Below, in pieces: positions 242-49,060 of a stretch of DNA of 64,000 bases. The translations under genes and the position numbers were made by a program. The notes beneath the pieces were generated by a model. That model saw only the letters and a list, made by a program, of their open reading frames with translations. It had not been told where the DNA came from and searched no databases. The stretch is from Bifidobacterium sp. WK012_4_13. GTDB lineage: Bacteria > Actinomycetota > Actinomycetes > Actinomycetales > Bifidobacteriaceae. The DNA is taken from positions 1,178,001 to 1,242,000 of the forward strand of contig NZ_CP129683.1 of NCBI RefSeq assembly GCF_041080835.1, written 5' to 3'. The first letter of the stretch is position 1, and each line of letters begins with the position of its first letter.

Positions 242-377
242 TTTGAGCCGAGATTGCAAGTTTTTGGCACTTCGTCGAGCATACAGACACAAAAATGGCA
301 TGATATCGGTCCATATTGCAACGATTTCGACGATTCATACTTCACCAAGTGCCAAAAACTTGCAATCCGAGCGCAAA
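242..377. repeat. Intergenic inverted-repeat element 1 (REPIN-like, reverse orientation)
   Basis: Two arms, 242-272 and 347-377, are near-perfect reverse complements; the inner 21 bases (252-272 against 347-367) match exactly and contain TGCCAAAAACTTGCAATC in the right arm. The core between them, read on the minus strand, shares TCGAAATCG with element 4 and TATCATGCC with element 3, so this copy lies in the opposite orientation to the other five. It lies 71 bases after the truncated upstream gene and 61 bases before the valS start. Confidence 0.8.
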
Positions 378-438
378 GCTGCCCAGCAGTGGCCCTCACA
401 ACCCATCTTTGTCACGCTAAATTCATACACTTGCGAGT

Positions 439-3174
439 ATGACTGAGAAGCAAGGACCAATATCCGCTCGACTGACCCCACTCCCCGACCGCGTTGCCGT
501 CGATGGTCTGGAATCCAAGTGGCAGAATCAATGGGAAACATCTGGAATCTATCAATTCAAGCACAATCGCGACCGCTCACAGGTGTACTCGATCGATACC
601 CCTCCGCCAACGGTTTCCGGGCATCTGCACGTCGGCCATGTGTTCTCATACACGCACACCGACATCATCGCCCGATACAAGCGCATGCGTGGCTTCGATG
701 TCTTCTATCCGATGGGTTGGGACGACAACGGCCTGCCGACCGAACGCCGCGTGCAGAACTACTATGGAGTGCGCGTCGACACCTCACTGCCCTATGACCC
801 CGACTTCAAGCCACCATTCGAAGGCACGGAAGGCAAGAAGCTCGAGGCGCGCGACCAGGTTCGCATCTCGCGTCAGAACTTCATCGAACTGTGCGAAAAA
901 CTGACCGCTCAGGACGAGAAGCTGTTCGAGGATCTTTGGCGTTCGCTTGGTCTTTCCATCGATTGGTCGCAGACCTATCACACGATCGGTGAACATCCAC
1001 GCCGTGTGGCGCAGAAGGCATTCCTGCGCAACCTGGCGCGAGGCGAAGCATATCAGCAGGATGCGCCTGGTTTGTGGGACGTCACCTTCCAAACGGCAGT
1101 CGCTCAGGCCGAGCTTGAGTCACGCGAATATCCTGGCTTCTATCACAAGATCGCATTCCGCTTCGAAGATGGCACGCCACTCTACATCGAAACGACCCGA
1201 CCTGAGTTGCTGGCTGCCTGCGGCGCACTGATCGCCCACCCAGACGACGAGCGCTACAAGAAGTACTTCGGTCAGAAGGTCTATTCTCCACTGTTCAAGG
1301 TTCCCGTGCCGATTCTCGCGCATCCGGCCGCCGAAATGGACAAGGGGGCCGGCATCGCGATGTGCTGTACCTTCGGCGATGTGACCGACGTCGAGTGGTG
1401 GCGCGACCTGAAGCTGCCGACCCGCTCGATCCTGCAGCGCAATGGCCGCATCGTCGGCGATGTTCCTGGCTGGATCACCGACGAGCATGGCCGTGAAGTC
1501 TTCGAGGAGACCTCGGGCAAGACCGTGTTCTCCGCACGTAAGATCGTCGTTGACGAGCTGCAGAAGAGCGGTGACCTGGACGGCGAGCCGACGCCGACCA
1601 AGCGCATGACGAACTTCTATGAGAAGGGTGACAAGCCGCTTGAGATCGTGACCTCGCGTCAGTGGTATCTGCGCAATGGCGGCACCGATGCGGCCCTGAA
1701 CGCAGAGCTGATCGAACGTGGCAAGCAGCTCAGCTTCCACCCCGACTTCATGCGCGTGCGCTACGACAACTGGGTGCACGGGCTGAACGGCGACTGGCTG
1801 ATTTCTCGCCAGCGCTTCTTCGGCGTGCCGTTCCCGCTGTGGTATCCGGTCAAGGCCGATGGTGAGACCGATTACGCTCACCCGATCACGCCGAACGAAG
1901 CGGATCTGCCGATCGATCCGACAAGCGACGTTCCGCAAGGCTTCGACGCCTCGCAGCGCAATGTTCCCGGTGGATTCACCGCTGAGAGCGACATCATGGA
2001 CACCTGGGCAACCAGCTCACTGACACCCCAGATCGTGACCCATTGGGCAGAGCCTGGCGAAGAGAACGAGCAGCTGTTCAAGTCCACCTTCCCGATGGAT
2101 TTGCGCCCGCAGGGGCAGGACATCATTCGTACCTGGCTGTTCAGCTCCATTGACCGCGCTCACCTTGAGAATCATTGCCTGCCGTGGTCGAATACCACAC
2201 TTTCAGGCTGGATTCTCGACCCCGATCACAAGAAGATGAGCAAGTCCAAGGGCAACGTGGTCGTGCCGAATGAGCCGATCGAGAAGTTCGGCGCCGACGC
2301 GGTGCGCTATTGGGCCGCATCGGCCCGTTTGGGACTCGATGCTACATACGACGTCGGTCAGATGAAGATCGGCCGTCGACTGGCCATCAAGCTGCTCAAC
2401 GCCACGAAGTTCGCCTTGGCGATTGGCCGCGAAGACGAGAATCATCATGTCGCCTCCGCCGCGAGCGTGACCTGGAACCCGGACGATGTGACCGAAACCA
2501 TCGATCGCGCAGTCCTGAGCCGTTTTGGCCAAGTCATCGCAGCCGCGACAGATTCCCTCGAAGCATATGAACACTCGAAGGCTCTCGAAGTCATTGAAAG
2601 CTTCTTCTGGGACTTCTGCGACGATTACATCGAACTGGTGAAGAACCGCGCCTATGGCACTGCAGACGCCACTGGCAAGATTCCTTCTGAAGCTGCCATA
2701 CAGTCCGCACGCACCACGCTTGGTCTTGGACTCGATGCCTTCGCCCGTCTGCTTGCCCCGTATCTGCCATTCTCCACCGAACAGGTATGGAGCTGGATGC
2801 ATGATGGAGCCGGTTCCGTACACACTGCTGGATGGCCTGACGCTGCACTCTATGCCGATGCAGGCAAGGGTGTGAACATGGACGTGCTGACTTGGTCGGG
2901 CAGCACTCTTGCCGAACTGCGCAAGATCAAGTCTGAAGCCAAGGTTTCCATGCGTACGCCAATCACCAGCGTTTCGCTGAGCGTTCCTGCAGAGGCTGTG
3001 GATGCGGTGCGCTCCTCACTGATCGATATTGCTGAAGCCGGTCGAGTCACCGGCGATATCGACATTGAGACCGCTGCAGTTCCAGATTCCGATGCGCAGG
3101 ATACCGAAGCGCCGTCGATCAGGGTCATCTCAAGCACCTTGGGCGAACCACCGGCAAAGAAACCCAGAAAGTAG
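439..3174 (+). CDS. valS: Valine--tRNA ligase
   Basis: Class I aminoacyl-tRNA synthetase charging tRNA-Val in the cytoplasm; 911 residues, normal for the family. The HIGH signature appears as HVGH in the segment PPPTVSGHLHVGHVFSYTH near residue 60, and KMSKS is present in KKMSKSKGNVVVP near residue 600. The editing (CP1) insertion lies between them, and the anticodon-binding domain is followed by a short basic tail ending PPAKKPRK. The ATG at 439 lacks a clear Shine-Dalgarno sequence, so the message may be leaderless or poorly led; the next in-frame starts would cut into conserved sequence. An inverted-repeat element lies directly upstream; I see no T-box leader. A strong hairpin follows the stop. 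Confidence 0.97.
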   Translation: MTEKQGPISARLTPLPDRVAVDGLESKWQNQWETSGIYQFKHNRDRSQVYSIDTPPPTVSGHLHVGHVFSYTHTDIIARYKRMRGFDVFYPMGWDDNGLPTERRVQNYYGVRVDTSLPYDPDFKPPFEGTEGKKLEARDQVRISRQNFIELCEKLTAQDEKLFEDLWRSLGLSIDWSQTYHTIGEHPRRVAQKAFLRNLARGEAYQQDAPGLWDVTFQTAVAQAELESREYPGFYHKIAFRFEDGTPLYIETTRPELLAACGALIAHPDDERYKKYFGQKVYSPLFKVPVPILAHPAAEMDKGAGIAMCCTFGDVTDVEWWRDLKLPTRSILQRNGRIVGDVPGWITDEHGREVFEETSGKTVFSARKIVVDELQKSGDLDGEPTPTKRMTNFYEKGDKPLEIVTSRQWYLRNGGTDAALNAELIERGKQLSFHPDFMRVRYDNWVHGLNGDWLISRQRFFGVPFPLWYPVKADGETDYAHPITPNEADLPIDPTSDVPQGFDASQRNVPGGFTAESDIMDTWATSSLTPQIVTHWAEPGEENEQLFKSTFPMDLRPQGQDIIRTWLFSSIDRAHLENHCLPWSNTTLSGWILDPDHKKMSKSKGNVVVPNEPIEKFGADAVRYWAASARLGLDATYDVGQMKIGRRLAIKLLNATKFALAIGREDENHHVASAASVTWNPDDVTETIDRAVLSRFGQVIAAATDSLEAYEHSKALEVIESFFWDFCDDYIELVKNRAYGTADATGKIPSEAAIQSARTTLGLGLDAFARLLAPYLPFSTEQVWSWMHDGAGSVHTAGWPDAALYADAGKGVNMDVLTWSGSTLAELRKIKSEAKVSMRTPITSVSLSVPAEAVDAVRSSLIDIAEAGRVTGDIDIETAAVPDSDAQDTEAPSIRVISSTLGEPPAKKPRK

Positions 3175-3211
3175 CCGACTTCTTCTATCTTCATTCTGAA
3201 GTTAGGGCTGC

Positions 3212-3257
3212 AAGTGCATGGAGATGACAGTTTCATGACTGTCTTCTCCATGCACTT
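3212..3257 (+). terminator. Hairpin terminator after valS
   Basis: AAGTGCATGGAGA (3212-3224) pairs with its complement at 3245-3257, and an inner GACAGT/ACTGTC pair extends the stem, leaving a six-base loop. The T-tract after the stem is short, so termination efficiency is uncertain, but the position 38 bases after the valS stop fits. Confidence 0.7.
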
Positions 3258-3311
3258 TCCCATATTCAAGACGAAATAACCGCATATCCATCTTCGCTGA
3301 CGCGGGGCTTG

Positions 3312-3417
3312 CAAGTTTTTGGCACTTGGCAAAGTATCAGACCCTCAGAAGCCGCATAGCTGCGACCAGATCAAGCCAAAAATCAGCGTTTATACTTCGC
3401 CAAGTGCCAAAAACTTG
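3312..3417. repeat. Intergenic inverted-repeat element 2
   Basis: Left arm 3312-3337 and right arm 3392-3417 are 26-base reverse complements with one mismatch. The right arm reads ATACTTCGCCAAGTGCCAAAAACTTG. The core contains AGCCAAAAA, also found in element 6. The right edge lies 15 bases from the chorismate mutase stop codon (minus-strand gene). Confidence 0.85.
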
Positions 3418-3431
3418 AAGGCCCACTGAAA

Positions 3432-3824
3432 TCATGCGAAGACGTCAAGGACACCGGGATTGCCGCCTGACTCTGCGATGCGTCTGTGACGCTTCTTGGC
3501 CTCGGTGACCACGAACTCCCTGTACTTTTCGGCTATTTCGGGATCGAGCCCGGCATCTATGGCTATCCGGTTCAGGCGTGCCATCTGACGGTCCTCGCGC
3601 TGATAGTCGGCGGGTGCAAAGCCTGCCTTTGCCTTGACGACGCCTACCATCGACGTGTATTTGAAACGTTCCGCAAGCAGGGAGACGATGGCGGCATCCA
3701 CATTGTCGATGGACTGTCTCAGTTCTCTTATCTGCTCGACTGCCTTGGCATTCTGAGGGTTCTCGGCAGCCATGTTCCTGTCTATCGTGGTCGAATTCTC
3801 ATCTTCAGGTTCAGCATCGCTCAT
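3432..3824 (-). CDS. aroQ: Chorismate mutase (AroQ-type)
   Basis: Converts chorismate to prephenate, the first step to phenylalanine and tyrosine. 130 residues. After an acidic 25-residue leader the all-alpha AroQ fold is recognisable: the IRELRQSIDNVDAAIVSLLAERF helix with its conserved Arg and Asp, then the VKAKAGFAPADYQREDRQ segment with the catalytic-site Lys and the Asp-x-x-Arg-Glu pattern. It is a stand-alone monofunctional enzyme, not fused to prephenate dehydratase. The start at 3824 has GAGG close upstream; a second Met 17 codons later also has an AGGA and could be the true start. It stands alone between valS (convergent) and rho. Confidence 0.88.
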   Translation of the reverse strand: MSDAEPEDENSTTIDRNMAAENPQNAKAVEQIRELRQSIDNVDAAIVSLLAERFKYTSMVGVVKAKAGFAPADYQREDRQMARLNRIAIDAGLDPEIAEKYREFVVTEAKKRHRRIAESGGNPGVLDVFA

Positions 3825-3994
3825 AGCCTCAAGAATAGCCGGGAGCTATAACCAATCAGCTGACCGAAAACGCATCGGCATCCGATGCATCTCAACGAAG
3901 AATCGCTTGTGGCCAGTGGAGTCGTGCATGATGCGATCGTTTTCCGAATGCTCCTGTTTGCTCTTGCTCTATGTGACAGTTTCGCATCCTTATG

Positions 3995-4112
3995 GCAAGT
4001 TTTGGGCACTCGTCTGAGTACAGACCGATGCAACCGGCCTCATGAGCCGCGTGTTCCACCAGTATCATGCCCTTTTCGCGCCTTTATACTCTGATGAGTG
4101 CCAAAAACTTGC
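3995..4112. repeat. Intergenic inverted-repeat element 3
   Basis: The left arm starts GCAAGTTTTGGGCACTCG (3995) and the right arm, 4087-4112, ends GAGTGCCAAAAACTTGC; they pair with three to four mismatches. The core shares TATCATGCC with element 1 (minus strand) and TTTCGCGCC plus TTATACT with element 4. It lies between two minus-strand genes, farther from a stop codon than most copies. Confidence 0.75.
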
Positions 4113-4273
4113 AATCCCGGCCTGTGAAGCAGTACCCATGAATGTCCGTCAGCCGCAGCCGGATGCAGAGAACGCCCTGCATGCCACCACCATGCGGTCA
4201 TGTATCGTCGCATGCTCCAAGCAGAAGAACAGCCAAGCTTGTCAGAGCTTGACAAGCCATCGGCGCTCATGCA

Positions 4274-4309
4274 AATGCCCTCAATGTCAGAAATGACATT
4301 GAGGGCATT
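4274..4309 (-). terminator. Hairpin terminator after rho
   Basis: A perfect 16-bp stem (AATGCCCTCAATGTCA at 4274-4289, complement 4294-4309) closes a four-base loop. It lies 27 bases beyond the rho stop codon. Only TTT follows the stem on the minus strand, so it may be a weak terminator or an mRNA 3'-end stabiliser. Confidence 0.65.
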
Positions 4310-4335
4310 GTCGCATTGCTGCGGACTGAGCTGAA

Positions 4336-6354
4336 TCAGGCCTGAGGGATGTTCTGGGTCAACGCTGCAAGGAAGTCCTTGTTCGTCATGGTCTTCTTCA
4401 AGCGTGGCACCAGTGTCTGATATGCCTGCTCCGGCTCCATGCCACCGAATGCACGGCGCAGACGATAGACGACCGCCAACTCGTTCGGAGGGGTGATGAG
4501 CTCTTCGCGGCGGGTGCCGGAGGCATTGATGTCGATGGCGGGGAACATGCGCTTCTCGGACAGTTCGCGGGACAGGCGCAACTCCATGTTGCCAGTTCCC
4601 TTGAACTCCTCGAAGATGACCTCGTCCATCTTGGAACCGGTTTCGACCAAGGCTGACGAGATGATGGTCAGGGAACCACCGTTCTCGATGTTTCGTGCCG
4701 CTCCGAAGAACTTCTTCGGAGGATACAGCGCCTGCGCGTCCACACCGCCGGAAAGGATTCGCCCAGATGCAGGTGCGGCGATGTTGTATGCGCGGGCAAG
4801 ACGGGTCATCGAATCGAGCAGCACGACGACATCCTGGCCAAGCTCGACCAGACGCTTCGCCCGCTCAATCGCGAGTTCGGCTACGGTCGTGTGGTCCGAT
4901 GCGGGGCGGTCGAAGGTCGAGGAAATGACCTCGCCCTGAACGGTGCGCTCCATGTCGGTGACCTCTTCAGGACGTTCGTCGACCAGCACGACCATCAGAT
5001 GCACCTCGGGATTGTTGGTCGTGATCGAATTGGCGATGTTCTGCAAGGTTATCGTCTTGCCTGCCTTTGGAGGCGAGACGATGAGTCCACGCTGCCCCTT
5101 GCCGATTGGCGAGACGATGTCGATCAGACGCCCGGTGATCTTGTTGGGCTGCGTCTCCATGCGAAGGCGTTCCTGCGGATAGAGCGGCGTGAGCTTGCTG
5201 AAATGGGGACGTGCCGAAGCATCTTCGACGCTCATGCCATTGATCGTGTCGATGGACTGCAGAGGAACGAACTTCTGGCGCTGGTTGCGGCGCTCCCCCT
5301 CATGCGGAGGACGAATCGAGCCATGGACGGCGTCGCCCTTGCGCAGGCTGTACTTCTTGACCTGCCCCATCGAGACATAGACGTCGTTCGGTCCTGGAAG
5401 GTAGCCTGAGGTTCTGATGAAGGCATAGGAATCGAGCACATCGACGATGCCTGCGACGGGAACCAGCTCCTCCTGCCGTGCATCCTCGCGCTTCTCCTCC
5501 TCGCGGGATTCGAAATCATGGTTGCGGTCACGTCTGTTGCGGCCCCTCCGGTCATTGCCTCGCTCATTGCGCTCCGACACATCATTGCGCTCGCTGCGAT
5601 CCGAACGCTCGCCGCGATCGTTGCGTGTGCCGCGGTCGCGACGGTCGCGTGTACGCCGACCGCCGTCCTGGCTCTCGCCACGCTCATCATTCTGACGCCG
5701 TGACGAACGCTCGCTGCGATTGGGAAGCGCTGCAAGGATATCGTCAAGATCGCGGACCTTCTCATGATCCTGCTCCGCATTGTCCTCTGACGAATCATGC
5801 TTGCGGCTTCTTCTTCTCAGAGGAAGCGGAAGGGCGTTGGAGCCATGAGATTCATCCTTGCCTTCACGACGTTCGTCACGCGCCTCACCGCGCTGTTCAC
5901 CCGCTTCCGTCCGTGACTCGTCGATGCCAAGCGCATCGAAGAGATCGTTCGAGCGACCCTGCCCGCTGGTCTTGCTCCGCGGACGCTGAGCACCGCGCTG
6001 ACCGGCATCCGAGGATGACGAAGGCTGGGCGGCATCTTCAGATGCTGCGGCCTCCTTGACCGGAGCACTCTTGCGATTGCGGCGCCGAATCAAAGAACGT
6101 TCTTCGGGAATTGTCGGAGAGATCCCGGAATTGTGCTGTTCCTCAGCCGATTCGGCTGAAGCATTGACCGAAGGCGTCTGCTTCGGAGACCTGACGGTCA
6201 CGCCCTCAGGCGCGGCGCCACCAGTACGTGCTGCCTGTATGGTCTCAACAAGTTTTGGCTTACGCATCGTGGATGTTCCACGCAGACCCATCTGCTTGGC
6301 GAGCTCTTTAAGCTCAGGCAGTTTCATATCATCAAGATTTTGGCTTGTTGCCAC
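4336..6354 (-). CDS. rho: Transcription termination factor Rho, with Arg/Asp-rich insertion
   Basis: Hexameric RNA helicase for factor-dependent termination; 672 residues, long because of the disordered region typical of actinobacterial Rho. A Rho_N/SAP-like segment ([15 protein letters not shown]) opens the protein. Residues about 50-290 are low complexity, with an Arg/Asp/Asn-rich block at about 205-290 ([19 protein letters not shown]). Then come the cold-shock-type RNA-binding domain and the RecA-type ATPase with Walker A PPKAGKT and Walker [13 protein letters not shown]. The start is a GTG at 6354 with GGAAAGG upstream; an ATG nine codons on is a weaker alternative. The gene is followed by a hairpin and stands as a single unit. 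Confidence 0.96.
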
Positions 6355-6529
6355 TGTATAATGCCTTTCCTACCGCTCGCTGACACAATGTCAGGCGTGG
6401 CTTGAAAATGATTGCAGATTCATCTGCATATGAATATCCGAGGCTGTCCCAGCAATCGGACTCCACATACCTTACAACGCCCCATGGATTCTTGCAAAAT
6501 AAAACGCCATGACTATCCCGAAATGCAAG

Positions 6530-6564
6530 AATCCGGCAAGGTGGTTCATCCACCCTGCCGGATT
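6530..6564 (-). terminator. Hairpin between the FAD oxidoreductase and rho
   Basis: AATCCGGCAAGGTGG (6530-6544) pairs with 6550-6564 apart from one mismatch, with a five-base loop. On the minus strand it ends with TCTTGCATTT, a loose T-rich tail, and lies about 90 bases beyond the oxidoreductase stop at 6653. Confidence 0.6.
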
Positions 6565-6652
6565 CAGTCGCTACTCCTGCCTCACAAATCCAAGTTTCAC
6601 ACCCATGCTGAAGGTTGTGAAGATTTGTGCGAGGTGCAGTTGGAGCGCTGCC

Positions 6653-8269
6653 TCACTTTTCCTCGTGATAGCTTTTCTCCGTATTCACGTTCCATACGTT
6701 TCGTTTGGACGTTCGGCCGTTCTCGATATTGCTCACAGCCTCCATGGCGGTCGCCATGGAATGATCCTGATTATTGTAGTGGTGCTGACCATTGCGACCC
6801 ACGCAATACAGATTACCGAAGGAATCCAGCCACTCGACAAGCTCTGGCATCTGAGGATAGGTGTCGAAGTATGCAGGGTATGCCTTGGGCACCTCTTCGC
6901 GATGAGAATCAATGACATCCTGAGGGCCGTTGATGATGCCCATGCGCGTGAGCTCGCTGATCGCAAACTTTCTGGCGTCATCTTCTGAGAGATTCCAGAA
7001 GTCATCGCCTTCATCGCAGAAGTATTCCAGGCCGATCCACACCGTGTTCTCGACATCCTTCACGAGATATGGACTCCAATTGTTAAAGACCTGAAGGCGT
7101 CCGACCTTGTAGCCGGGGTCTTGCACATAGATCCAGCAGTCTGGAACGATAGGCGGATGCCCAAGGGTCGGAATGCTTGTGGTGTTGCGAATCCTTAGCT
7201 TCTTGACAAGAAGCCCGATCGTGACGAAGTCGCGGTATGGCAGGCCATTGGCAATGTGCTGCATGTCCTTCGGCGCTGACTTCGGAGACTCCGCGATGGC
7301 ATGCACCAGATCCTTCACAGGCATCGAAGAGATGACCTGGTCGGCCTTCAGCTCGACTCGTTCGCCCTTTGCATTGGAATACACGACACCGGATATTCTG
7401 CCTTCGCTCTGATCTATCTCGACGACCCTGGCATCCGTAAGCACCTTGACACCGGCATCGGTGCAACGCTTTTCCACGGTTTCCCAGAGTTGACCTGGAC
7501 CGAGCTTGGGATACCAGAATTCCTCGATAAGGCTCGTCTCCACCTCGCGGGAGTCACGCTTCTTCGGCATCAGCTTCATCACGGCATTCTTGAGCACACC
7601 GATGATGCTCAGGCCCTTGACGCGCTGCGCGCCCCAATCGGCGCTGATCTGGCTTGGCGAACGACCCCAGAGCTTCTCGGTGTATCCCTCGAAGAACATC
7701 GAGTAGAGCTTGCGCCCAAAGCGGTTGATATAGAAGTTCTCGAGATTGTCCTCAGGCAGCTTGTGGACGCAGGATTTCAGATAGCTGAATCCAGCCTCCA
7801 TCGTCAGCTTGAAGCCCAAGGCCTTCAAGGTATTCGCGGAAAGCGAGATGGGATAGTCGAAGAAATGGTGGTTCCAGAAGATACGCGACACACGGTGGCG
7901 CTTGAGCATCACCTTGTCTGTCTTCTCTGGGTCCGGACCTCCGGGCTCCAGATCGTGGTGGCGTCCCAGCTTCCTGTCATCGTACGAGGGAGCGCCCTGC
8001 AGTGGAAGCATCGTCTTCCACCATTCCATGATTCTGTCGTCCTTGGAGAAGAATCTGTGGCCTCCAATGTCCATTCGGTTGCCGTTATGCTTCACGGTCC
8101 TTGATATGCCGCCGAATTCCTTTGTCGCTTCAAGAACGGTGACATCATAGTCGGTATTGCCATTCTTGACGAATTCCCAAGCTGCGGTGAGACCAGCGGG
8201 GCCTCCACCGACAATCACTATTGATTGCCTTTTCCCTGAATCCTTGTCTGTGGATTCTTGTTCAGTCAC
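6653..8269 (-). CDS. NAD(P)/FAD-dependent oxidoreductase, protoporphyrinogen oxidase / UDP-galactopyranose mutase-like
   Basis: Flavoprotein of the amine-oxidase/UGM-like superfamily; 538 residues from the chosen start. The N-terminal dinucleotide-binding motif IVIVGGGPAGLTAAWEF is intact, followed by LEATKEFGGISRT and NRMDIGGHRFFSKDD, which contact the flavin in related enzymes. The C-terminal segment GNLYCVGRNGQHHYNNQDHSM is the second flavin-contact region. Homologues often accompany cell-surface polysaccharide genes, but none lie next to it here, so the substrate is open. I prefer the GTG at 8269 because GAGGAGG sits five bases upstream; an ATG at 8308 would add 13 residues without a good site. 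Confidence 0.8.
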   Translation of the reverse strand: MTEQESTDKDSGKRQSIVIVGGGPAGLTAAWEFVKNGNTDYDVTVLEATKEFGGISRTVKHNGNRMDIGGHRFFSKDDRIMEWWKTMLPLQGAPSYDDRKLGRHHDLEPGGPDPEKTDKVMLKRHRVSRIFWNHHFFDYPISLSANTLKALGFKLTMEAGFSYLKSCVHKLPEDNLENFYINRFGRKLYSMFFEGYTEKLWGRSPSQISADWGAQRVKGLSIIGVLKNAVMKLMPKKRDSREVETSLIEEFWYPKLGPGQLWETVEKRCTDAGVKVLTDARVVEIDQSEGRISGVVYSNAKGERVELKADQVISSMPVKDLVHAIAESPKSAPKDMQHIANGLPYRDFVTIGLLVKKLRIRNTTSIPTLGHPPIVPDCWIYVQDPGYKVGRLQVFNNWSPYLVKDVENTVWIGLEYFCDEGDDFWNLSEDDARKFAISELTRMGIINGPQDVIDSHREEVPKAYPAYFDTYPQMPELVEWLDSFGNLYCVGRNGQHHYNNQDHSMATAMEAVSNIENGRTSKRNVWNVNTEKSYHEEK

Positions 8270-8361
8270 AGATGCCTCCTCTTTCTCTACATCAATTCCA
8301 AAACACATACAGATGCCGTCACTGCCTGCAATCCTGAATAAGACTACATATTGTTGAGAAG

Positions 8362-8676
8362 CTATGGCATCTCTTCAGGAATGTCGATGTCAGATTTCTG
8401 CACTTCTTCCACATTCACGTCCTTGAATGTGACGATGCGGACATTTTTCACAAACCTGCTTGAACGATACACGTCCCAAACCCAGGCATCGGTCAATTGC
8501 ACATCGAAGTACACATCGTTGCCCGCCGAGCGGACATTGAAGTCAACCTTGTTCGCCAAATAGAAGCGTCGCTCGGTTTCGACGACATAGGTGAAGAGCT
8601 TGATGACATCCCTGTATTCACGATACAGGGCAAGCTCCGCCTTGGTTTCGTAATTATCGAGATCCTCAGCACTCAT
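8362..8676 (-). CDS. DUF2469 family conserved actinobacterial protein
   Basis: 104 residues, matching the small acidic family typified by mycobacterial Rv2901c; the run VVETERRFYLANKV and the pattern DAWVWDVYR followed by FKDVNVEE are diagnostic. The molecular function is unknown. The start (MSAEDLDNYE) follows the stop of the upstream acetyltransferase gene by three bases, so the two are almost certainly co-transcribed. Confidence 0.9.
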   Translation of the reverse strand: MSAEDLDNYETKAELALYREYRDVIKLFTYVVETERRFYLANKVDFNVRSAGNDVYFDVQLTDAWVWDVYRSSRFVKNVRIVTFKDVNVEEVQKSDIDIPEEMP

Positions 8677-8679
8677 ATG

Positions 8680-13184: not shown

Positions 13185-13192
13185 ACCCGAAC

Positions 13193-21552: not shown

Positions 21553-21628
21553 TTTTAAAAAAGCACGTCTCTGCGATCATTTTCCGTGAATCTCAGATAT
21601 ATCCACGCCTTGCCCTGACGCGAATATG

Positions 21629-21734
21629 CAAGTTTTGGGCACTTCCCCAAGTATCATCGGTCGAAATCGCTGCTATGGGACACCACTTCAGGCCAATTTC
21701 GCGCCCTTATACTCTCGCAAGTGCCAAAAACTTG
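21629..21734. repeat. Intergenic inverted-repeat element 4
   Basis: Left arm 21629-21654 and right arm 21709-21734 (ending AAGTGCCAAAAACTTG) pair with a few mismatches. The core carries TCGAAATCG (shared with element 1) and TTTCGCGCC-TTATACT (shared with element 3). The right edge is 35 bases from the stop of the minus-strand FAH-family gene. Confidence 0.8.
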
Positions 21735-21769
21735 ACAAGGCCGATCCGCGCGGAACGGAACGGACGCAA

Positions 21770-29052: not shown

Positions 29053-29126
29053 GCCCCTATAGCTCAGTTGGCTAGAGCAGCTGACTCTTAATCAGCGTGT
29101 CCGGGGTTCGAGTCCCCGTGGGGGCA
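29053..29126 (+). tRNA. tRNA-Lys (anticodon CTT)
   Basis: A full cloverleaf can be drawn: acceptor GCCCCTA/TGGGGGC, D arm with AGCTCAGTTGGCTAGAGC, anticodon loop CTCTTAA closed by GCTGA/TCAGC with CTT at 29087-29089, and T arm GGGGTTCGAGTCCCC. The discriminator is A at 29126. CCA is not encoded. A T-tailed terminator follows directly. Confidence 0.97.
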
Positions 29127-29242: not shown

Positions 29243-29281
29243 TCTTCAGAAGACTGCTCTTGCCCTTTCCCTATCGTGCCG

Positions 29282-29348
29282 AAGCATCGTGCGCCTTGCA
29301 AAGCATCGTGCGCCCTGCGAAGCATCGTGCGCCTTGCAAAGCATGGGC
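29282..29348. repeat. 19-bp tandem repeat, three and a half copies
   Basis: AAGCATCGTGCGCCTTGCA repeats at 29282-29300, 29301-29319 and 29320-29338 with at most two changes, then a partial copy. The block is bracketed by GTGCC and GGCAC. It lies between the tRNA/fhs terminators and the fhs 3' end; I see no coding use. Confidence 0.8.
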
Positions 29349-34081: not shown

Positions 34082-34191
34082 GTTCTCCTCCACAATACCT
34101 TGCTGCCGCTATACCGCCCGTCAAGCCTAGCGGACCATACACATTTTCGACGAATTTACGTCTATATTCTGGATATCGCAAACGATATTAC

Positions 34192-34294
34192 GAGTTTTGC
34201 GGCAATTGAAAGTATAAGGGTCGAAGATTGGCTTTCCACCGTAGAGGAATACACCAAAAATTCGCTTGTATACTTCCAGATTGCCGCAAAACTC
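34192..34294. repeat. Intergenic inverted-repeat element 5 (class B arms)
   Basis: Left arm 34192-34216 and right arm 34269-34294 pair with few mismatches; the right arm reads TATACTTCCAGATTGCCGC then AAAACTC. The arm motif GCCGCAAAACTC replaces the GTGCCAAAAACTTG of elements 1-4. The right edge is 24 bases from the pepC stop (minus strand). Confidence 0.8.
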
Positions 34295-34318
34295 ACAATT
34301 TGGATTTCCTGCACCCGA

Positions 34319-40040: not shown

Positions 40041-40133
40041 TGATCCTCCTGCCCGTGAGAAGCATCGCATGGTTTGCCAGCTTGCTATTGGCATAGCCTA
40101 GCAGCCCTGCATTGCAAAAGCCGCGGTTTCTTC

Positions 40134-41000: not shown

Positions 41001-41068
41001 CAGGAACCCCTTTCGACTCGACGATGGTCACTCCCACCCTACACGCTGCCGAAGTCGTTGAAGGCAGC

Positions 41069-43324
41069 CTATCTGCCGCCGAAGGAACCGCCTCCTGAAC
41101 CACCGCCACCGCCCGCGAATCCACCACCGGAGAATCCGCCGCCGGAGGATGATGAAGGGGCAGCAGCATGAATCGTTGAACTGATTGATGAGAAGCTGGA
41201 TGTCAGCTGGCTTCCGATGTCGCCGATGCCAGGGTTGAAGTCTGCTCCCGCTGGCATCCCCGGAGCCGCTTCGCCAAAACTGCCCGCCATATAGCCATAG
41301 GTCATGAATGTCCACGGTCTGAACGACCAATAGAGCATCGAGCCGGAAGCGTTCGAATCAAGCCATTGAGGGTCGCTCAGCTTCGGATTGGCACGCGCGA
41401 GCTGCTGCAATGCTTCGTTGCTGATGCCGAATGCCGCGGCATAGACGAGGTAACGGTCCCACAGAGCGAGGTCATCGACCCCACGGTCTTCGAAGGAGCT
41501 GAAATCGAGCAGGTATCGCTGCAGTCCCTGGATCTGACCGGCATATTCCTGACCGGTGTCATTGAGCACCGTGACCTTGCCATACATGACCGCGAAGATG
41601 GAGCACACGAGGAGCAAGAAGCCGCATAGGCTGGCGATGACGAAGGTTCCCCCACCAAGCGTCATTCCGGCTGCAAGCGTGCCGACCAGCGCGACGACGA
41701 TGCCCAAGATTCCCAGGCCAATCGAACTTGAACGCGTCTGCGTGGCCCCGAGCAAAGCGAATTCTCCACTCACCGCATTGGTGAACTTCGCCTGTTCCGT
41801 ATAGCCCGACTCCCACTTCTTGAAGCTTCGCTGCATCTGCTTCAGGTCGAATACCGGTGAATCGAGTCGTTGCGCCGCGCATTCCAAGAGGTGCAATGCA
41901 GCATCTTCCGATGAGCTGAGCTTAAGAGAGTCGCGATCATGCGAGCAGACTGGATGAATGACAATCGTCGATGTCGAAGCAAGATCTTTTTGGAGGCGTT
42001 TGTCGCCGCTCGAAACCGCACTCGAAATCTGCACTGAATCTGCCTGCGTCAAATCAATGGTGCCATACGCGGCGACCGAGCCTGGATAAATTGAAATGGC
42101 ATGCTTGGATGCGAGCGACAGCACGCTTGCCGCCATTTGCCGCGAGGCCTTGTCCGAGGTTTTCCTGAGGACGATGTCATGCATGCCTGCTGCCGAGGCT
42201 GGGCTCATGTTCGGCGGTTCGCGCCAGTACTCCACATCGCCGTGATAGCGCGAGGCTCCATAGGTCTTGAAAGCGGCACGCACAGCGAAAATGCTGAGAA
42301 TGATTGCAACGATGCCGCCAATGATCCAGGCGATTATCGTGAGTCTTGCCTTCGACCTCGCTGCGTCTCTTGCTTTCGTCTCCTGCTGGGTCTCATCATC
42401 GATGATGCTGTGCTTGGCATTGGAGCTGCTCGTTCGCGCAACGCCGCTGCTGGCCGAGGAATCGAACATCGCGACCAGATCGAGATGCTCGCCTGCACTC
42501 ACATCCTGCGCCGTGAACTGCAAGGTGCCATCGCTTTTTCGCGATGTCTCGGATTGACCCGCGTAATGCAGCCATGCCCAGGAATTCTTCGATGAAACGC
42601 CCTCAGGGAAGCTGACGGTTGCATTGACCGTGCCGATTGGAATCTGATTGGCGTCGCCGAAAGGCTCCCACTGGAAGTTGGTCACATCCGGGTGAGCAGT
42701 CGAAACGCCGTGGAACGTCATCGTGATGTCAAAGACCATCGCCTTGGCAGAATCGGTTTCAGGAATGTTCCACCCGATCTCAACAGGATATTTGGAATCC
42801 TTGTCTGCACTTGAGGCATCATATTGTGTTGGATTGTCGGAATCGGAGACATTGGCGATATACCAATGATTTGCCTCGGTTGAATCCCAGTTGCTCGTAG
42901 AAGAGACATCATCGGGAGGAATGGGCTTGGTCTGCTTGTATGTGGTGCCGTCCGTGACATTGCGAACCGAAACGTCGGAAATCGAAGTCAGATTTTTCGG
43001 ATTGATCGTATATTGCTGATACATCTGACGCCATGGCCTGGTATCGCCATCGTCATCTTCGCGCTCGTTCAGCTTCATGGACACGCGCTGCTCAATTTTC
43101 AGATCGCCGTTCTTCAGCACCTGCGTCTTGTAATCGAGCGAATTATATGAGAGAGGTGCTTCGTTGAGACTCGACACACCAATCCCCAGGAGCAGGGCGA
43201 CTGCCACAGCCGCGATGATTATCGCCGCTCCAAGGCATAGAATGAACCGTCTCACATTCCACTCACGCTTCGAAGCCGGTGCTTCACCGGAGTCCGTGTG
43301 CAGAGATCGTTGAGTTGGTTGCAT
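41069..43324 (-). CDS. DUF2207-containing membrane protein
   Basis: 751 residues from the ATG at 43324 (GAAGGGAAAC upstream). One N-terminal membrane segment (FILCLGAAIIIAAVAVALLLG), then a roughly 250-residue extracytoplasmic DUF2207 domain, a second segment (LTIIAWIIGGIVAIILSIFAV), a cytoplasmic region, two more segments (about residues 560-610), and a Gly/Ser/Phe-rich tail (GGGFSGGGFAGGGGG). The tail resembles the Gly-rich end of TPM-type proteins found beside LemA. Function unknown. The LemA gene lies 213 bases upstream in the same orientation, a frequent pairing. Confidence 0.85.
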   Translation of the reverse strand: MQPTQRSLHTDSGEAPASKREWNVRRFILCLGAAIIIAAVAVALLLGIGVSSLNEAPLSYNSLDYKTQVLKNGDLKIEQRVSMKLNEREDDDGDTRPWRQMYQQYTINPKNLTSISDVSVRNVTDGTTYKQTKPIPPDDVSSTSNWDSTEANHWYIANVSDSDNPTQYDASSADKDSKYPVEIGWNIPETDSAKAMVFDITMTFHGVSTAHPDVTNFQWEPFGDANQIPIGTVNATVSFPEGVSSKNSWAWLHYAGQSETSRKSDGTLQFTAQDVSAGEHLDLVAMFDSSASSGVARTSSSNAKHSIIDDETQQETKARDAARSKARLTIIAWIIGGIVAIILSIFAVRAAFKTYGASRYHGDVEYWREPPNMSPASAAGMHDIVLRKTSDKASRQMAASVLSLASKHAISIYPGSVAAYGTIDLTQADSVQISSAVSSGDKRLQKDLASTSTIVIHPVCSHDRDSLKLSSSEDAALHLLECAAQRLDSPVFDLKQMQRSFKKWESGYTEQAKFTNAVSGEFALLGATQTRSSSIGLGILGIVVALVGTLAAGMTLGGGTFVIASLCGFLLLVCSIFAVMYGKVTVLNDTGQEYAGQIQGLQRYLLDFSSFEDRGVDDLALWDRYLVYAAAFGISNEALQQLARANPKLSDPQWLDSNASGSMLYWSFRPWTFMTYGYMAGSFGEAAPGMPAGADFNPGIGDIGSQLTSSFSSISSTIHAAAPSSSSGGGFSGGGFAGGGGGSGGGSFGGR

Positions 43325-43537
43325 CACATGTTTCCCTTCGTGTGCGCAATATGGAGCAGCGTCGCTGCGGCAACGCGCAGATTTCACCGAATTTCCCAGA
43401 ATTTCGAATTTCCCAGTGCGCAGTAATGCGCCATAATGCGCCGCAGTAAGCCGTTTGCTGGGCTTCGCTCGATCATAGGTGTGCGTGTGAATCGTTACGG
43501 CACTGCGCCAGGCATTCGAATACGAGCTGCCTGGGTG

Positions 43538-44119
43538 TCAGAACTTGACCTGCGGCACCGATCGATCCTGTTCGGCCACTGCAAAGAATTGCGCTTCCTT
43601 GAAGTGGAACATGCCCGCGATGATGTTGCTCGGCACCGACTGAATCTTGATGTTGAACTTCTGCACGACATCGTTATAGAACTGCCGCGCATAGGCGATT
43701 TTCTGCTCCAGCTGGCTCAGCTGATTCTGCAGGTCCATGAAGTTCTGATTCGCCTGCAATTGCGGGTATGCCTCGGCAGTCGCACGCAGATTCACCAGAG
43801 CATTGCTCAGCTGGTTCTCGGCCTGCGCGCGCTGCTCCGGATCGCCATGCTGCGCCGCTTCGACTGCCCCGGCCCTGGCTTCGGTGACCTTCTGAAACAC
43901 TTGAGACTCGTGAGTCGCATAGCCCTTCACGGTCTCGACAAGGTTTGGCACCAGATCGGCGCGCTGCTTGAGCTGAACATCAATCTGGGCCCAGCCATTG
44001 GCAACGCGGTTTCGCAAGGCAATCAGGCCGTTATATACCCCAATCCCCCACAACACCAGCACGACGACAATAACGACTATCACGAGTACAGCGATAAGTA
44101 ATCCGTTCATATCGTCCAT
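43538..44119 (-). CDS. LemA family protein
   Basis: 193 residues. One N-terminal membrane helix (LLIAVLVIVVIVVVLVLWGIGVYN) followed by the helical LemA domain: LIALRNRVANGWAQIDVQLKQR, DLVPNLVETVKGYATHE, NFMDLQNQLSQLE and the ending FNIKIQSVPSNIIAGMFHFK. Members are exported membrane-anchored proteins of uncertain function, sometimes with envelope stress or protease genes. The ATG at 44119 or the one three codons later (44110) may be the start; neither has a strong site. Divergent from yhbY. Confidence 0.9.
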   Translation of the reverse strand: MDDMNGLLIAVLVIVVIVVVLVLWGIGVYNGLIALRNRVANGWAQIDVQLKQRADLVPNLVETVKGYATHESQVFQKVTEARAGAVEAAQHGDPEQRAQAENQLSNALVNLRATAEAYPQLQANQNFMDLQNQLSQLEQKIAYARQFYNDVVQKFNIKIQSVPSNIIAGMFHFKEAQFFAVAEQDRSVPQVKF

Positions 44120-44199
44120 TGTCTCATGGACCGCGAATCTTTCGACTGCAGCGCACGCTAGCATGGTGTGCAGGATACATCACGAAGGGACATACGCAT

Positions 44200-44529
44200 A
44201 TGGAAGATAACGGCATCCGCTCGGCAAGGGAACTGAACAAGCATCAGGTCAAGCAGCTTCGTGCGCTTGGCAATCACCTGAATCCGCTCATCATCATCGG
44301 CAAGAGCAACCTCACCGAGACGAGCATCAGGCAGGCGGACGAAACCCTGGAAAATCGTGAGCTCATCAAATGTTCGGTGCTGAACGGCTCAGACTTGACA
44401 GCCCGCGATGCCGCTGCCGAGCTTTCAGAAAAGCTAGGGGCCTCTGTGGTCCAGGTCATCGGCAACCGCTTCGTCATATACCGTGAAAGCCATCGCGATG
44501 ACATCGAAAGAATAAAGCTCGTTCGTTGA
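44200..44529 (+). CDS. yhbY: YhbY-type CRM-domain RNA-binding protein
   Basis: 109 residues, essentially one CRM (CRS1-YhbY) domain. It shows LNKHQVKQLRALGNHLNPLIIIGKSNLT, which holds the GKxGLT-like loop (here GKSNLT), followed by ELIKCSVL and VQVIGNRFVIYR. E. coli YhbY binds pre-50S particles. GAAGGGA lies upstream of the ATG at 44200. Convergent with pnp; a strong hairpin lies between. Confidence 0.92.
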   Translation: MEDNGIRSARELNKHQVKQLRALGNHLNPLIIIGKSNLTETSIRQADETLENRELIKCSVLNGSDLTARDAAAELSEKLGASVVQVIGNRFVIYRESHRDDIERIKLVR

Positions 44530-44547
44530 AGATCTGCGTTGATCTTC

Positions 44548-44574
44548 GATTCTCAAGATTCTCAAGATTCTCGA
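44548..44574. repeat. 9-bp tandem repeat after yhbY
   Basis: GATTCTCAA repeats three times, the last copy ending CGA (44548-44574). Tandem micro-repeat in the 240-base yhbY-pnp gap. Confidence 0.7.
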
Positions 44575-44695
44575 GAGGGACCGCAAATTCCAAGCAGCTG
44601 AAATCCCGATGAGGCATCGGTGGCTGCGAAGGATGCGCCTGCAGCCCCAGCAGCCCCAGCAACGAAGCTCGCCACTCTCCGGCCGAGATATAGAA

Positions 44696-44735
44696 CTGCC
44701 ATGCAGCCCCGGGTCTTCCCTGGGTGCATGGCAGT
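44696..44735. terminator. Hairpin between yhbY and pnp
   Basis: ACTGCCATGCA (44696-44706) pairs with 44725-44735, and an inner CCCGGG/CCCTGGG-type pairing closes the loop. Situated 34 bases after the pnp stop on the minus strand; the minus-strand tail is TCTATATCTC. Confidence 0.7.
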
Positions 44736-44769
44736 CGTCTATTCAGCGATTAATGGACTCGTCCGCACA

Positions 44770-47409
44770 TCAGTCCTCGAATGGCTCGAAATCCTTGCGA
44801 ACTCTGCGGCGTGGTCGCTCAGTGCGCTCTTCGCGGTCTGCACGATACTCGTCATAGTGCTCGTCTGGAGCATAGTGAGGGACTTCGCGGCGTCCACGGT
44901 AGCCACCGCGACGGTCGTTGCGATCGTTGCGATCGCCACGATCATGCCGACGGTCATTGTGTTCGCTACGATCCGAACGGTCATCATGGCGGTCCCTGCG
45001 GTCGTATCCGCGATCGCCACGATCGCCACGATCGCCACGATCGGAGCGGTCAGAACGATCATCACGGTCATCGCGACGACGACGTGGGCGGTCATCGTTG
45101 CTGTAGCGTGAACGATATCCACCACGATCGCCACGGTCGCCACGACGATCGCTACGGTCAGAACGGCGGTCACCGCGATCGCCGTGTGACTGGCTGGCGC
45201 TCTCCTGGTTCTCGAATCCTGGGATGGCAAGCGAAATCTTGCCGCGGTCGTCAACGCCCTGAACGATGACCTCGACCGTGTCACCTTCCTTCAGCACGTC
45301 TTCGACGGCGTCGACGCGCTCACCGTTGGTGAGATTGCGAATCTGCGAGATGTGAAGCAGGCCATCGGTTCCTGGCGTCAGGTTGACGAAGGCGCCAAAG
45401 CTTGTGGTCTTCACGACCTTGCCGTTGAAGGTCTCTCCGGCTTCTGGAACGTGCGGATTGGCGATCTGATCGATCATTTCCTTGGCCTTGGCCGCGGCTT
45501 CGCCACCCTCGGAGGAGATATAGACCGTGCCGTCGTCCTCGATGGTGACGTCAGCTCCGGTGTCCTCCTGAATCTGGTTGATCATCTTGCCCTTCGGACC
45601 GATGACCTCGCCGATCTTCTCGACTGGAACGGTGGTGCTGATGATGCGAGGTGCGTATGGGCTCATCTCGGCCGGGCTGTCGATGCACTCATTGATGACC
45701 TCAAGGATGGTCGTGCGCGCTTCCTTGGCCTGCTGCAGGGCGGCTGCAAGAATGTCGGCAGGAATGCCGTCAAGCTTTGTGTCAAGCTGCAATGCGGTGA
45801 TGAACTCGGAGGTTCCGGCAACCTTGAAGTCCATGTCGCCGAAGGCATCTTCCGCACCCAGGATATCGGTGAGGGTCTTGAAGATGTGCTTGCCATCGAC
45901 ATCACCGGAAACCAATCCCATGGCGATGCCGGCAACAGGAGCCTTCAGTGGAACGCCGGCTGCGAGCAGCGACAGCGTCGAAGCGCAGACGGAACCCATC
46001 GATGTCGATCCGTTGGAGCCGATGGCCTCGGATACCTGACGAATGGCATAGGGGAACTCTTCACGCGAGGGCAGCACGGGAACCAGTGCGCGCTCCGCAA
46101 GGGCGCCGTGACCGATCTCGCGGCGCTTCGGCGAACCGACGCGGCCGGTCTCACCGGTCGAATATGGAGGCATCTCGTAATTGTGCATGTAGCGCTTCGA
46201 GGTTGGGCCGGAAAGCGCGTCGACCTGCTGCTCCATCTTGAGCATGTTCAGCGTGCTGACCCCAAGAATCTGGGTCTCGCCACGCTGGAAGAGAGCCGAT
46301 CCGTGAACGCGAGGAACGATGTCGACCTCGGCGGACAGGGTCCTGATGTCGCGAAGACCGCGGCCATCGATGCGGTAATCCTGCGTAAGGATGCGCTGAC
46401 GAACGATCTGGCGCTGCAGTTCCTTGAATGCGTTGCCAAGTTCCTTGTCCTTCTCGGCATCCTCCATATCGGTGAATTCCGAAGCAAGGGCAGCGCGGAC
46501 GCCCTCCTTGATCTCATGAATTCTATCCTGACGCGGAAGCTTGTCGGCGATGGAGAGCGCCTGATCCAAATCACCATGGGCGATTTGGTCGATGCGGTTG
46601 TACAGATCCTCAGTGTATTCAGGGAACAGAGGGAATTCCTTCGTCTCCTTGGCGACCTTGGACTTCAGCTCGTTCTGGGCTTCGCAGATTGCCTTGATGA
46701 AGGGCTTGGCCGCCTCAAGGCCCTGCGCGACGACATCCTCATCGGGCTTGATCTGGCCCTCGTCATAGATGAGCTTCCAGGCGTTCTTGCCTGCACCTGC
46801 CTCGATCATGGCGATGGCTACATCACCGTTGTCGATGACGCGACCTGCAACGACGATTTCGAACACTGCACGCTCACGCTCGCTCCAGCGTGGGAAGGCG
46901 ACCCACTGGCCATCGATCAAAGCCAGGCGGACGCCGGAAACCGGTCCTTCGAAAGGCAGACCGGAAATCATCGTGGAAGCAGATGCGGCGTTGAGCGCGA
47001 TCATGTCGTATGAGTCTTCAGGATTGACGGCCAATACGGTCTCGACTACCTGAACCTCGTTGCGCAGCGTGTGCGGGAACAGCGGGCGCAGAGGACGGTC
47101 AATGATTCGGCAGGCCAGAATGGCCTCCGAGGATGGACGGCCTTCACGGCGGAAGAACGAACCGGGAATCTTTCCGGCTGCGTACATCTTTTCTTCCACA
47201 TCAACGGTGAGTGGGAAGAAATCGTAATTCTCCTTGGGGCTTGAACCAGCTGTCGTGGTTGAAAGCACCATCGAATCATCATCAAGATAGGCTGCCACTG
47301 CACCGTCGGCCTGCTGGGCGAGACGGCCAGTTTCAAAGCGCAACGTGCGCGTGCCAAATGAGCCATTATCAATAGCCGCTTCTGCGGCTTGTATTTCGGG
47401 ACCCTCCAC
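44770..47409 (-). CDS. pnp: Polyribonucleotide nucleotidyltransferase (PNPase) with Arg/Asp-rich tail
   Basis: Phosphorolytic 3'-5' exoribonuclease and polymerase. 879 residues: two RNase PH domains (first with [14 protein letters not shown], second with [12 protein letters not shown]), an alpha linker, a KH domain ([15 protein letters not shown]) and an S1 domain ([18 protein letters not shown]). The last roughly 140 residues are Arg/Asp/Gly rich, for example [18 protein letters not shown] chose the GTG at 47409 because AAGGAGG lies five bases upstream and the family begins EGPEI; the frame is open to 47568 but that part uses rare codons and contains CTAG repeats. A terminator separates it from rpsO. 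Confidence 0.95.
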
Positions 47410-47443
47410 GGGTTCCTCCTTCACTATTTTTTTCATCAATTCG

Positions 47444-47478
47444 CTAGACAATCTAGCTAACAACCTAGCGCCATCTAG
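47444..47478. promoter_or_regulatory. Cluster of four CTAG sites in the pnp leader
   Basis: CTAG occurs at 47444, 47453, 47465 and 47475, twice as CTAGCG. CTAG is scarce in the rest of the window. The stretch lies 35-70 bases upstream of the pnp GTG and could form alternative short stems; PNPase genes are often autoregulated through their leaders. A link is inferred only. Confidence 0.35.
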
Positions 47479-47671
47479 CGCTTCATCCATCTTGTGCATC
47501 CCGGACGCGGTATACCTGACCGCGCGCTCCTTGCTGGAGATACCTGCTGTGTCTGCATTATTCGTCATACCCTGAACCGTCTGGCCTTTTTCAAGCCATC
47601 GCGACTCATCCGTCTAACCACCTGCCGTGCTCAGCATCTACCGTATTCACATGTTCCGAATGCCGGTATGC

Positions 47672-47698
47672 AAAAGCGCCCGAGCTATATGCTCGGGC
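47672..47698 (-). terminator. Intrinsic terminator of rpsO
   Basis: GCCCGAGC (47678-47685) pairs with GCTCGGGC (47691-47698) around ATATA-type loop bases; on the minus strand the stem is followed by GCTTTTG. Lies 13 bases after the rpsO stop. Confidence 0.85.
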
Positions 47699-47710
47699 GG
47701 AAGTATTCAA

Positions 47711-47980
47711 TTATCGACGCAATCCCAGACGGCCGATCAACGAACGGTAACGTTCGATGTCAACACGCTGGAGGTAATCGAGCAGACGACGACGGTCGCC
47801 AACCATGAGAAGCAGGCCACGACGTGAATGGTGGTCGTGCTTATGCTCCTTCAGGTGCTCGGTCAGGTCGCTGATGCGCTTGGTCAGCAACGCGATTTGA
47901 ACCTCGGGAGAACCCGTATCACCTTCATGCGTCGCGTACTTGGTGACGATCTCTTGCTTTTCCTGTGCCGTAAGTGCCAC
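47711..47980 (-). CDS. rpsO: 30S ribosomal protein S15
   Basis: 89 residues, the exact family length, starting from a GTG at 47980 with AAGGAGGAGCC just upstream. Family blocks [27 protein letters not shown] and RRRLLDYLQ are intact. Binds 16S rRNA early in assembly. rpsO-pnp order is conserved in bacteria; here an intrinsic terminator lies between, so pnp must be read from its own promoter or by readthrough. Confidence 0.97.
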
Positions 47981-48109
47981 GGCTCCTCCTTGATATTGCT
48001 GCGCGGTGCTGCGACCCAATGTCGAAGCGCTCTCTTTCCGCGGGCGGAACACGCCAAGACAAGAGTATACACTTACCCTGCTATTTCACCGCTTCATCTT
48101 TTCGCAGAC

Positions 48110-48766
48110 TTACACGATGGTCAGAAGACCACCGAAGAGGACGATTCCCAACGCGACCAACTCAATGACGAAGAACAGAGCCATGGCGGACCAGCTGTGC
48201 GTGAGTGCATTGAGAGGCGAATCCTTGCGCACGATCACGAGAATCGCGACGAAGAGAAAGGCGAACGCCGCAGCCCCGAGCGCAGCCGAGATGACTCCAA
48301 GATTCGCGGCGTTGGCGAGATAGGCATATTTGCCGAAAACGACATAGGTGCCGTACCAGAATGACATCTTCAGGAGGCATAGACCTGAGATGAATTGCTC
48401 GGAGGACAGCGCAACGATGAATATCGTGCGCCACCACCATGACTTCGATTCCAGAACGCACATGGCAAGTGCGATCAGCGTCACCACAGTGACCATCCAA
48501 CCGATCACCGCTATTCCTGGAGCCTCGATCATGTTGAGTCGGGATATGATGCCCTGCGTGTGGCGGAGCGCGATGTAGCGGCCATAGCCATACGGGGCGA
48601 TGATGGCGACGAGGATCAGAGCTATGAAAGCAATCCAGCTCGCAGGATTGGACTGCCTGCGCTCAATATCCGCCAAAGATAGCCTTGAGTCGGGAATTTC
48701 ACCTTTGCTCTTCTCACTCATATTCGCATGTGCCCGTTCGCTGCCCTGTGTCTGTTCGCTGCCCAT
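48110..48766 (-). CDS. Multispanning membrane protein of unknown function
   Basis: About 218 residues from the MGSEQTQGSE start (GGTTGGTGAC upstream); a Met 15 codons later is another candidate. After a polar 45-residue leader come about five hydrophobic helices (WIAFIALILVAIIAPYGYG; VIGWMVTVVTLIALAM; a central pair; AMALFFVIELVALGIVLFGG). Charged and Tyr/Trp residues between helices suggest a bundle. I do not recognise the family. Probably monocistronic: rpsO lies downstream on the same strand with a 130-base gap, and an inverted-repeat element lies upstream. Confidence 0.65.
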   Translation of the reverse strand: MGSEQTQGSERAHANMSEKSKGEIPDSRLSLADIERRQSNPASWIAFIALILVAIIAPYGYGRYIALRHTQGIISRLNMIEAPGIAVIGWMVTVVTLIALAMCVLESKSWWWRTIFIVALSSEQFISGLCLLKMSFWYGTYVVFGKYAYLANAANLGVISAALGAAAFAFLFVAILVIVRKDSPLNALTHSWSAMALFFVIELVALGIVLFGGLLTIV

Positions 48767-48939
48767 TGTCACCAACCGTTTATGCATCACACATAAGTAT
48801 AGAGGTTCATCAGCAAAGGCAAACCCTCGTTTCCCTCAAAGGGGCACCGAAGGGCACTGAGGATCACTGAAGGGGCGCTGAATTCAATCGATACTCCGGC
48901 TTTCTCCGCAGACTGGGTGAATATCATAGGCACATTATG

Positions 48940-49060
48940 CGAGATTCCGAGTTTTGCGGCAATTCCAAAGTATCAATGTCCGAAAACGTTGATATTTGAT
49001 TGCCAGTAAGCCAAAAAGTGGGTGCGATACTTTGGAATTGCCGCAAAACTCGGAATCTCG
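48940..49060. repeat. Intergenic inverted-repeat element 6 (class B, perfect 35-bp arms)
   Basis: 48940-48974 and 49026-49060 are perfect 35-base reverse complements with a 51-base core; the left arm starts CGAGATTCCGAGTTTTGCGG. The core contains AGCCAAAAA, as in element 2. The right edge is 23 bases from the stop of the XRE regulator gene (minus strand). Best-preserved copy of the family. Confidence 0.9.

Follow-up and report, generated by a model that had tools for sequence, protein, structure and literature searches.

Palindromic elements in the window

The window, i.e., a stretch of 64,000 nucleotides of Bifidobacterium sp. WK012_4_13 (positions 1,178,001 to 1,242,000 of contig NZ_CP129683.1), contains six palindromic elements, which are members of a family with at least 93 copies in the genome. 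The arms of these elements come in two versions, here called dialects or classes A and B, and each dialect has its own nuclease gene, located between two copies of that dialect. A preliminary description had reported the six elements as pairs of long inverted arms, class A in four and class B in two, with ATACT at the inner end of most arms and with element 1 inverted relative to the other five. All six were found where it had placed them (Table 1), they all fold as long hairpins, and the arm classes, the ATACT motif and the inversion were confirmed. Its observation that substitutions in one arm tend to be matched in the other also holds: changes on both sides are present at 13 of the 26 stem pairs, a number reached by none of 500 shuffles. 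The outermost bases of element 3 are unpaired, and this element was identified via its arm pair and missed by the covariance model search described below.

When the window was scanned for hairpins with a span of 90-135 and a score of at least 13, six were obtained, i.e., five of the elements and one hairpin at 44915-45031 that overlaps reading frames, with element 4 falling below the cut; no hairpins above the same cut were present in three shuffled windows. The segment 44911-45182, which overlaps several reading frames and also scores as a hairpin, contains nine-base tandem-like repeats (ACGATCGCC and variants).

Table 1. Palindromic elements in the window. G000 is the source genome and the other G codes denote comparison genomes; X and Y are parts of the core (see below).
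Element	Class	Length	Position	Strand	Remarks
1	A	122 bp	249..370	(-)	X/Y core inverted relative to the other elements
2	A	122 bp	3304..3425	(+)	Orthologous G018 gap scored empty
3	A, long form	116 nt arm to arm (+10)	3988..4119	(+)	Orthologous G018 gap scored empty
4	A	122 bp	21621..21742	(+)	Orthologous G018 gap scored empty
5	B	121 bp	34183..34303	(+)	Site also carries an element in G018 and in G015
6	B	121 bp	48940..49060	(+)	Perfect 35-bp arms; near-identical core at the same site in G015

The population in the source genome

The genome scan proposed in the preliminary description was performed with a covariance model built from 23 copies, and it yielded at least 150 scored hits, which fall on 92 distinct places, each with an E value below 1e-12. 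Element 3 is an additional copy, and the resulting number of 93 is a lower bound. The copies measure 121 or 122 bp and have two inverted arms and sharp ends, with the consensus CGAGATTG...CAATCTCG. Conservation rises from 0.02 to 0.98 bits within one base at the left edge and falls from 1.11 to 0.07 bits within one base at the right edge. With up to three mismatches allowed, the arm AGTGCCAAAAACTTG has 83/75 matches in the genome versus 32/21 for the reversed pattern. In the alignment of the 23 copies, standard pairing was found in 90.4% of the cells of the 26 stem pairs. The arms are fixed and the cores are variable, with X (GAAATCGTTGA) and Y (AAGCCAAAAATC) as asymmetric core parts. From arm to arm, the 92 places measure 106 (60 places), 105 (25), 116 (4), 107 (2) or 104 (1) nt; a near-constant length of 105/106 with a minor class that is 10 longer would suit an arrangement in which both arms face the same side of the helix. 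Some copies, i.e., those at G000:C1:206582, 2393048 and 2396835 and those at 689719 and 1593909, have common flanks extending beyond the element and were, therefore, probably multiplied by larger duplications.

The elements are intergenic, as none of the 92 places overlaps by more than 20 bp with a gene called by a simple codon-score script, which was used instead of a gene finder. Among the 84 copies with called genes on both sides, 55 are located in codirectional, 23 in convergent and 6 in divergent gaps. The usual position is just 3' of a stop codon: in the codirectional gaps, 44 of the 55 copies are closer to the upstream stop, at a median distance of 46 bp versus 226 bp to the next start. 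The core is oriented with or against transcription without bias (30 against 25), and a strand-specific RNA was rejected on this ground. A known RNA family was also rejected, since the only Rfam match in the window was to a tRNA. No target-site duplication was detected, as matches between the flanks of the 92 copies at lengths of 1-15 bp were close to those between shuffled flanks, and the arm pairing ends at the element boundaries. At 29280-29344, ~150 bp after a tRNA gene (29053-29126), a 19-bp tandem repeat is present in three copies.

The nuclease and its relation to the arms

The nucleases encoded between the copies in G000 are 275 amino acids long. An AbiEi-like fold is predicted for their N-terminal half, and their C-terminal domain resembles the EDxHD homing endonuclease I-Bth0305I most closely. 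The proteins are similar to DUF559/MTES_1575 proteins, with a predicted Vsr/EDxHD fold unrelated to that of Y1 transposases. The scores in Pfam searches with PF04480 (24.5 and 19.0 bits vs. 38.2) and PF18741 (20.1 and 18.3 vs. 20.6) are below the curated thresholds. Residues E171, D204, E215 and D231 are invariant over 70 aligned rows, and H222 is present in 7 of them; these residues may correspond to the catalytic E, D, H, D motif. Another match to PF18741 in the source genome (G000:C1:970936-971217) is located within a long reading frame. No match to the nuclease was found in phages, and the plasmid collection contained only one weak match (29.8% over 53% of the query), in an 11.85-Mb Nonomuraea record.

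Strong nuclease hits were obtained in four of 27 genomes of the genus, i.e., G000, G015, G018 and G004, and a weak one in G012. With the covariance model, at least 35 hits were found only in G000, G015 and G018, besides weak hits in G007 (3) and G017 (2). All seven strong nuclease genes are adjoined by at least one paired-arm element with their own arms, the left copy at locus L145 and the right copy at L146 having been recognised by reading alone. The arm beside the nuclease gene of G004 represents a new dialect with 104/105 matches in that genome versus 0-5 per strand in three other genomes. A second nuclease-side arm is dispersed in four further members of the family, i.e., in G138 (49/48 matches), in G168 (34/34) and more weakly in G112 and G148, and a third forms smaller dispersed populations in G237 and G259, which belong to another family of the same class. 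Thus, the pairing of nuclease and arm is predictive: searches with arms taken from the vicinity of nuclease genes in other genomes led to dispersed populations there, with 0-5 matches per strand in comparison genomes. Furthermore, arm similarity tracks nuclease similarity, although the arm used for L150 in this comparison is that of a neighbouring hairpin rather than of an element.

Within the family, 106 of 189 genomes contain nuclease homologues at 1e-10. Outside the genus, a long hairpin is found within 450 bp of the gene at 24 of 26 family loci, on both sides in 5, with 12 times the density found farther away; these loci, like those considered at the class level below, were taken from the best 30 of many more matches. 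In Actinotalea sp. K2, four related short hairpins surround the nuclease gene.

Several other hairpins were encountered in these genomes. Loci L057, L059 and L068 (G007 and G017) contain hairpins with TTTTGGGCACTTT or GAGTTTTCAGCCATT arms, and no such nuclease is listed there. At places in G138 and G168 (e.g., G138:C19:6186-6369), the elements are nested, and each side has two arms at a distance of 42 bp from each other. In Bifidobacterium cuniculi (L154), a distant nuclease homologue (match at 4001-4588) has a hairpin at 4714-4819, at a distance of 126 bp. Another hairpin of 79 bp, whose 34-bp arm is perfect, is located at 5616-5694.

Turnover at shared sites

The gap between rplQ and truA, the genes for ribosomal protein L17 and tRNA pseudouridine synthase according to Pfam, is occupied by a nuclease unit in three genomes (G000, G018 and G015), each time flanked by a different arm dialect. 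No nuclease is found in this gap in the other 24 of the 27 genomes of the genus.

The sites of the copies in these three genomes were compared using 55 hairpins from at least 58 places in G018 and 37 hairpins from at least 41 places in G015. Both flanking genes are in common at 18 of the 92 places of the source genome when compared with G018 and at 11 of the 92 when compared with G015, and at 19 of 55 when G018 is compared with G015. Synteny with a copy in G018 was found for 14 of 27 class B copies versus 4 of 65 class A copies (p 2e-6), and synteny with a copy in G015 for 8 class B and 3 class A copies. A comparison of orthologous gaps, of the kind proposed in the preliminary description, gave a corresponding picture: an empty gap was found in G018 for 11 of 15 copies in class A and for 4 of 19 in class B (p 0.005), although the 52 G018 regions had been picked for containing a model hit, which is a bias toward occupied gaps. 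For the elements in the window, the gaps of elements 2, 3 and 4 were scored empty and those of 5 and 6 occupied. When only 20 contiguous G018 regions, selected by synteny around class A copies, are considered, class A gaps are occupied in 1 case and empty in 11, and class B gaps occupied in 6 and empty in 3 (p 0.016). The class B gaps scored empty include one (609446, L225) that had been selected because of a model hit, which is below the hairpin cut. As class A mostly faces empty sites in the relative and class B mostly shared ones, we conclude that dialect A spread more recently. The exact junctions of empty sites were unreadable, since the intergenic DNA is too diverged between the species.

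Among 48 syntenic pairs, the similarity of the cores was above the random 99th percentile in 24, with the same orientation in 18 and an inverted one in 6. The dialect differs in 12 of these 24 core-matched pairs, in 10 of them only by GCGGC/GTGGC and in 2 by more. For example, element 6 has GCGGC arms and its counterpart in G015 has GTGGC arms around a near-identical core, and the site of the copy at 1936230 has GCGGC in G000, TTCATTGTGAACTT in G018 and GTTGCC in G015. Since shared sites hold similar cores with different arm dialects, it follows that a site can persist through the replacement of its arms.

A proposed mechanism and its alternatives

We consider it probable that the at least 93 copies in two dialects, each bracketing its own nuclease, form one system with these enzymes, and we predict that each nuclease binds the arms and that it spreads copies or converts them. 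From the association of nuclease and dialect, the pairing of the arms and the turnover at shared sites, we infer that the nuclease cleaves and mobilises the elements. In the simplest scenario, it would recognise its own dialect in the paired arms, either as duplex or as extruded hairpin, and nick or cut the element there, probably acting as a dimer bound either to both inverted arms or to their hairpin. Subsequent repair or ligation would then give new copies at extragenic sites without duplication, change arms into the dialect in current use and occasionally flip the core. With slightly less confidence, we extend this proposal to the class Actinomycetes, where cognate AbiEi-EDxHD nucleases would move populations of palindromes and rewrite them in situ, each nuclease lineage having a single dialect of its own; such mobile DNA would be a counterpart of REPIN/RAYT systems of independent origin and give a function to many orphan DUF559-type proteins.

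Several points limit these proposals. At the class level, a hairpin is near the gene at 7 of 15 loci with shorter open reading frames and at none of 15 loci with open reading frames of at least 500 amino acids, most of these long frames extending beyond one end of the locus, so that only the other end could be seen. Cores may also be flipped without any enzyme, by small inversions between inverted repeats, and the bias in the choice of the G018 regions affects the gap comparison. Furthermore, genomes without the nuclease may contain populations in unseen dialects.

As the main alternative, the palindromes could be older host or selfish DNA that spread in another way, and the nuclease gene a parasite that homes into them and thus lies between copies that it does not move. 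The homing endonuclease fold of the C-terminal domain, the existence of repeat populations without a detected nuclease, and the unit in the rplQ-truA gap, flanked by copies and absent from 24 of the 27 genomes, would all agree with such a scenario. Nevertheless, we consider it unlikely. It is weakened by the match between the nuclease and the dialect found genome-wide: arm similarity follows nuclease similarity, and populations were discovered from nuclease-side arms. Moreover, the three flanking dialects of the three rplQ-truA units would be needless for a passive landing site, and no other candidate mobiliser was found, PF01797 being the only family searched.

Considerably less probable than homing is a defence or addiction device, in which the chromosomal palindromes would serve either as marks of self or in the regulation of a toxic nuclease whose control domain is AbiEi-like. 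Self-marking does not need ~100 scattered copies with dialect turnover, no partner of AbiEii size was found among the open reading frames of at least 200 amino acids at five loci, and the searches of phages and plasmids gave no match and one weak match, respectively. Finally, the positions close to upstream stop codons and the arm covariation would suit structural RNAs or terminators kept at gene 3' ends for transcription, with an incidental nuclease link, but this is very improbable in view of the unbiased core orientation, the lack of Rfam matches in the window besides a tRNA, the fixed arms with variable cores, the empty G018 sites of most class A copies and the recurrence of the nuclease link across many genomes.

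Comparison with known systems

The preliminary description had assigned the elements to the REPIN/BIME plan, with mobilisation by a REP-associated tyrosine transposase (RAYT) of the Y1 type. The plan applies in that the copies are dispersed, extragenic and numerous, with paired inverted arms, a variable core and a cognate gene adjacent, but the mobiliser does not: PF01797 matched none of the 27 genomes of the genus, including that of the source, and gave matches in 5 of 14 control genomes in the same search. A RAYT/Y1 transposase as mobiliser was thus ruled out. In PMC3116915, REPINs are described as REP doublets with a RAYT, and the two systems share conserved inverted ends, a variable spacer, a hairpin, an extragenic position, ~100 copies and a cognate gene adjoining copies. 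They differ in the enzyme, whose fold is unrelated, and in the end sequences and dialects; the consensus CGAGATTG...AAGTATAAA has no GTAG or CGTC tag, and GTAG is present in only 14-17% of the arms, where G follows AAGTA. Since the defining transposase was looked for and is absent, the system is REPIN-like rather than a member of the REPIN/RAYT systems and is likely run by a Vsr/EDxHD-type nuclease.

The elements resemble the MITEs of DDE insertion sequences in being short, non-coding and numerous, with inverted ends. Unlike MITEs, they lack target-site duplications in the 92 copies and show compensating changes along the stem, PF01797 being the sole transposase family searched. With EDxHD homing endonucleases, the nuclease shares the predicted Vsr-like fold of its C-terminal domain, the sequence of which matches DUF559/MTES_1575 proteins (PF04480, PF18741) below threshold. 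In contrast to I-Bth0305I and Vsr, it is free-standing with an AbiEi-like N-terminal half, and in contrast to intron-borne EDxHD enzymes, it is bracketed by dispersed palindromes. The AbiEi-like fold is shared with AbiE toxin-antitoxin systems, and no AbiEii toxin partner was identified by reading and Pfam names among the open reading frames of at least 200 amino acids at L144, L145, L146, L149 and L150. As the preliminary description had supposed, the literature searches made turned up no named bifidobacterial family of this kind. Likewise, limited searches of open-licence PMC articles, including PMC3943268, PMC3733652, PMC3116915 and PMC8049555, revealed no DUF559/Vsr-type nucleases linked to palindromic repeats.

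REPINs are the best-known tiny repeats served by a domesticated transposase. If our proposal is true, a second system on the same plan with an unrelated nuclease would show that such a life style has arisen at least twice, and a large family of orphan actinobacterial nucleases would obtain a testable role; the natural pairs of nuclease and arm dialect would allow specificity, conversion and spread to be measured. To our knowledge, the EDxHD/Vsr nuclease class is unrelated to any enzyme that serves such repeats, and we therefore regard the system as new in kind; on a stricter view, it may be a new variant of the REPIN plan.
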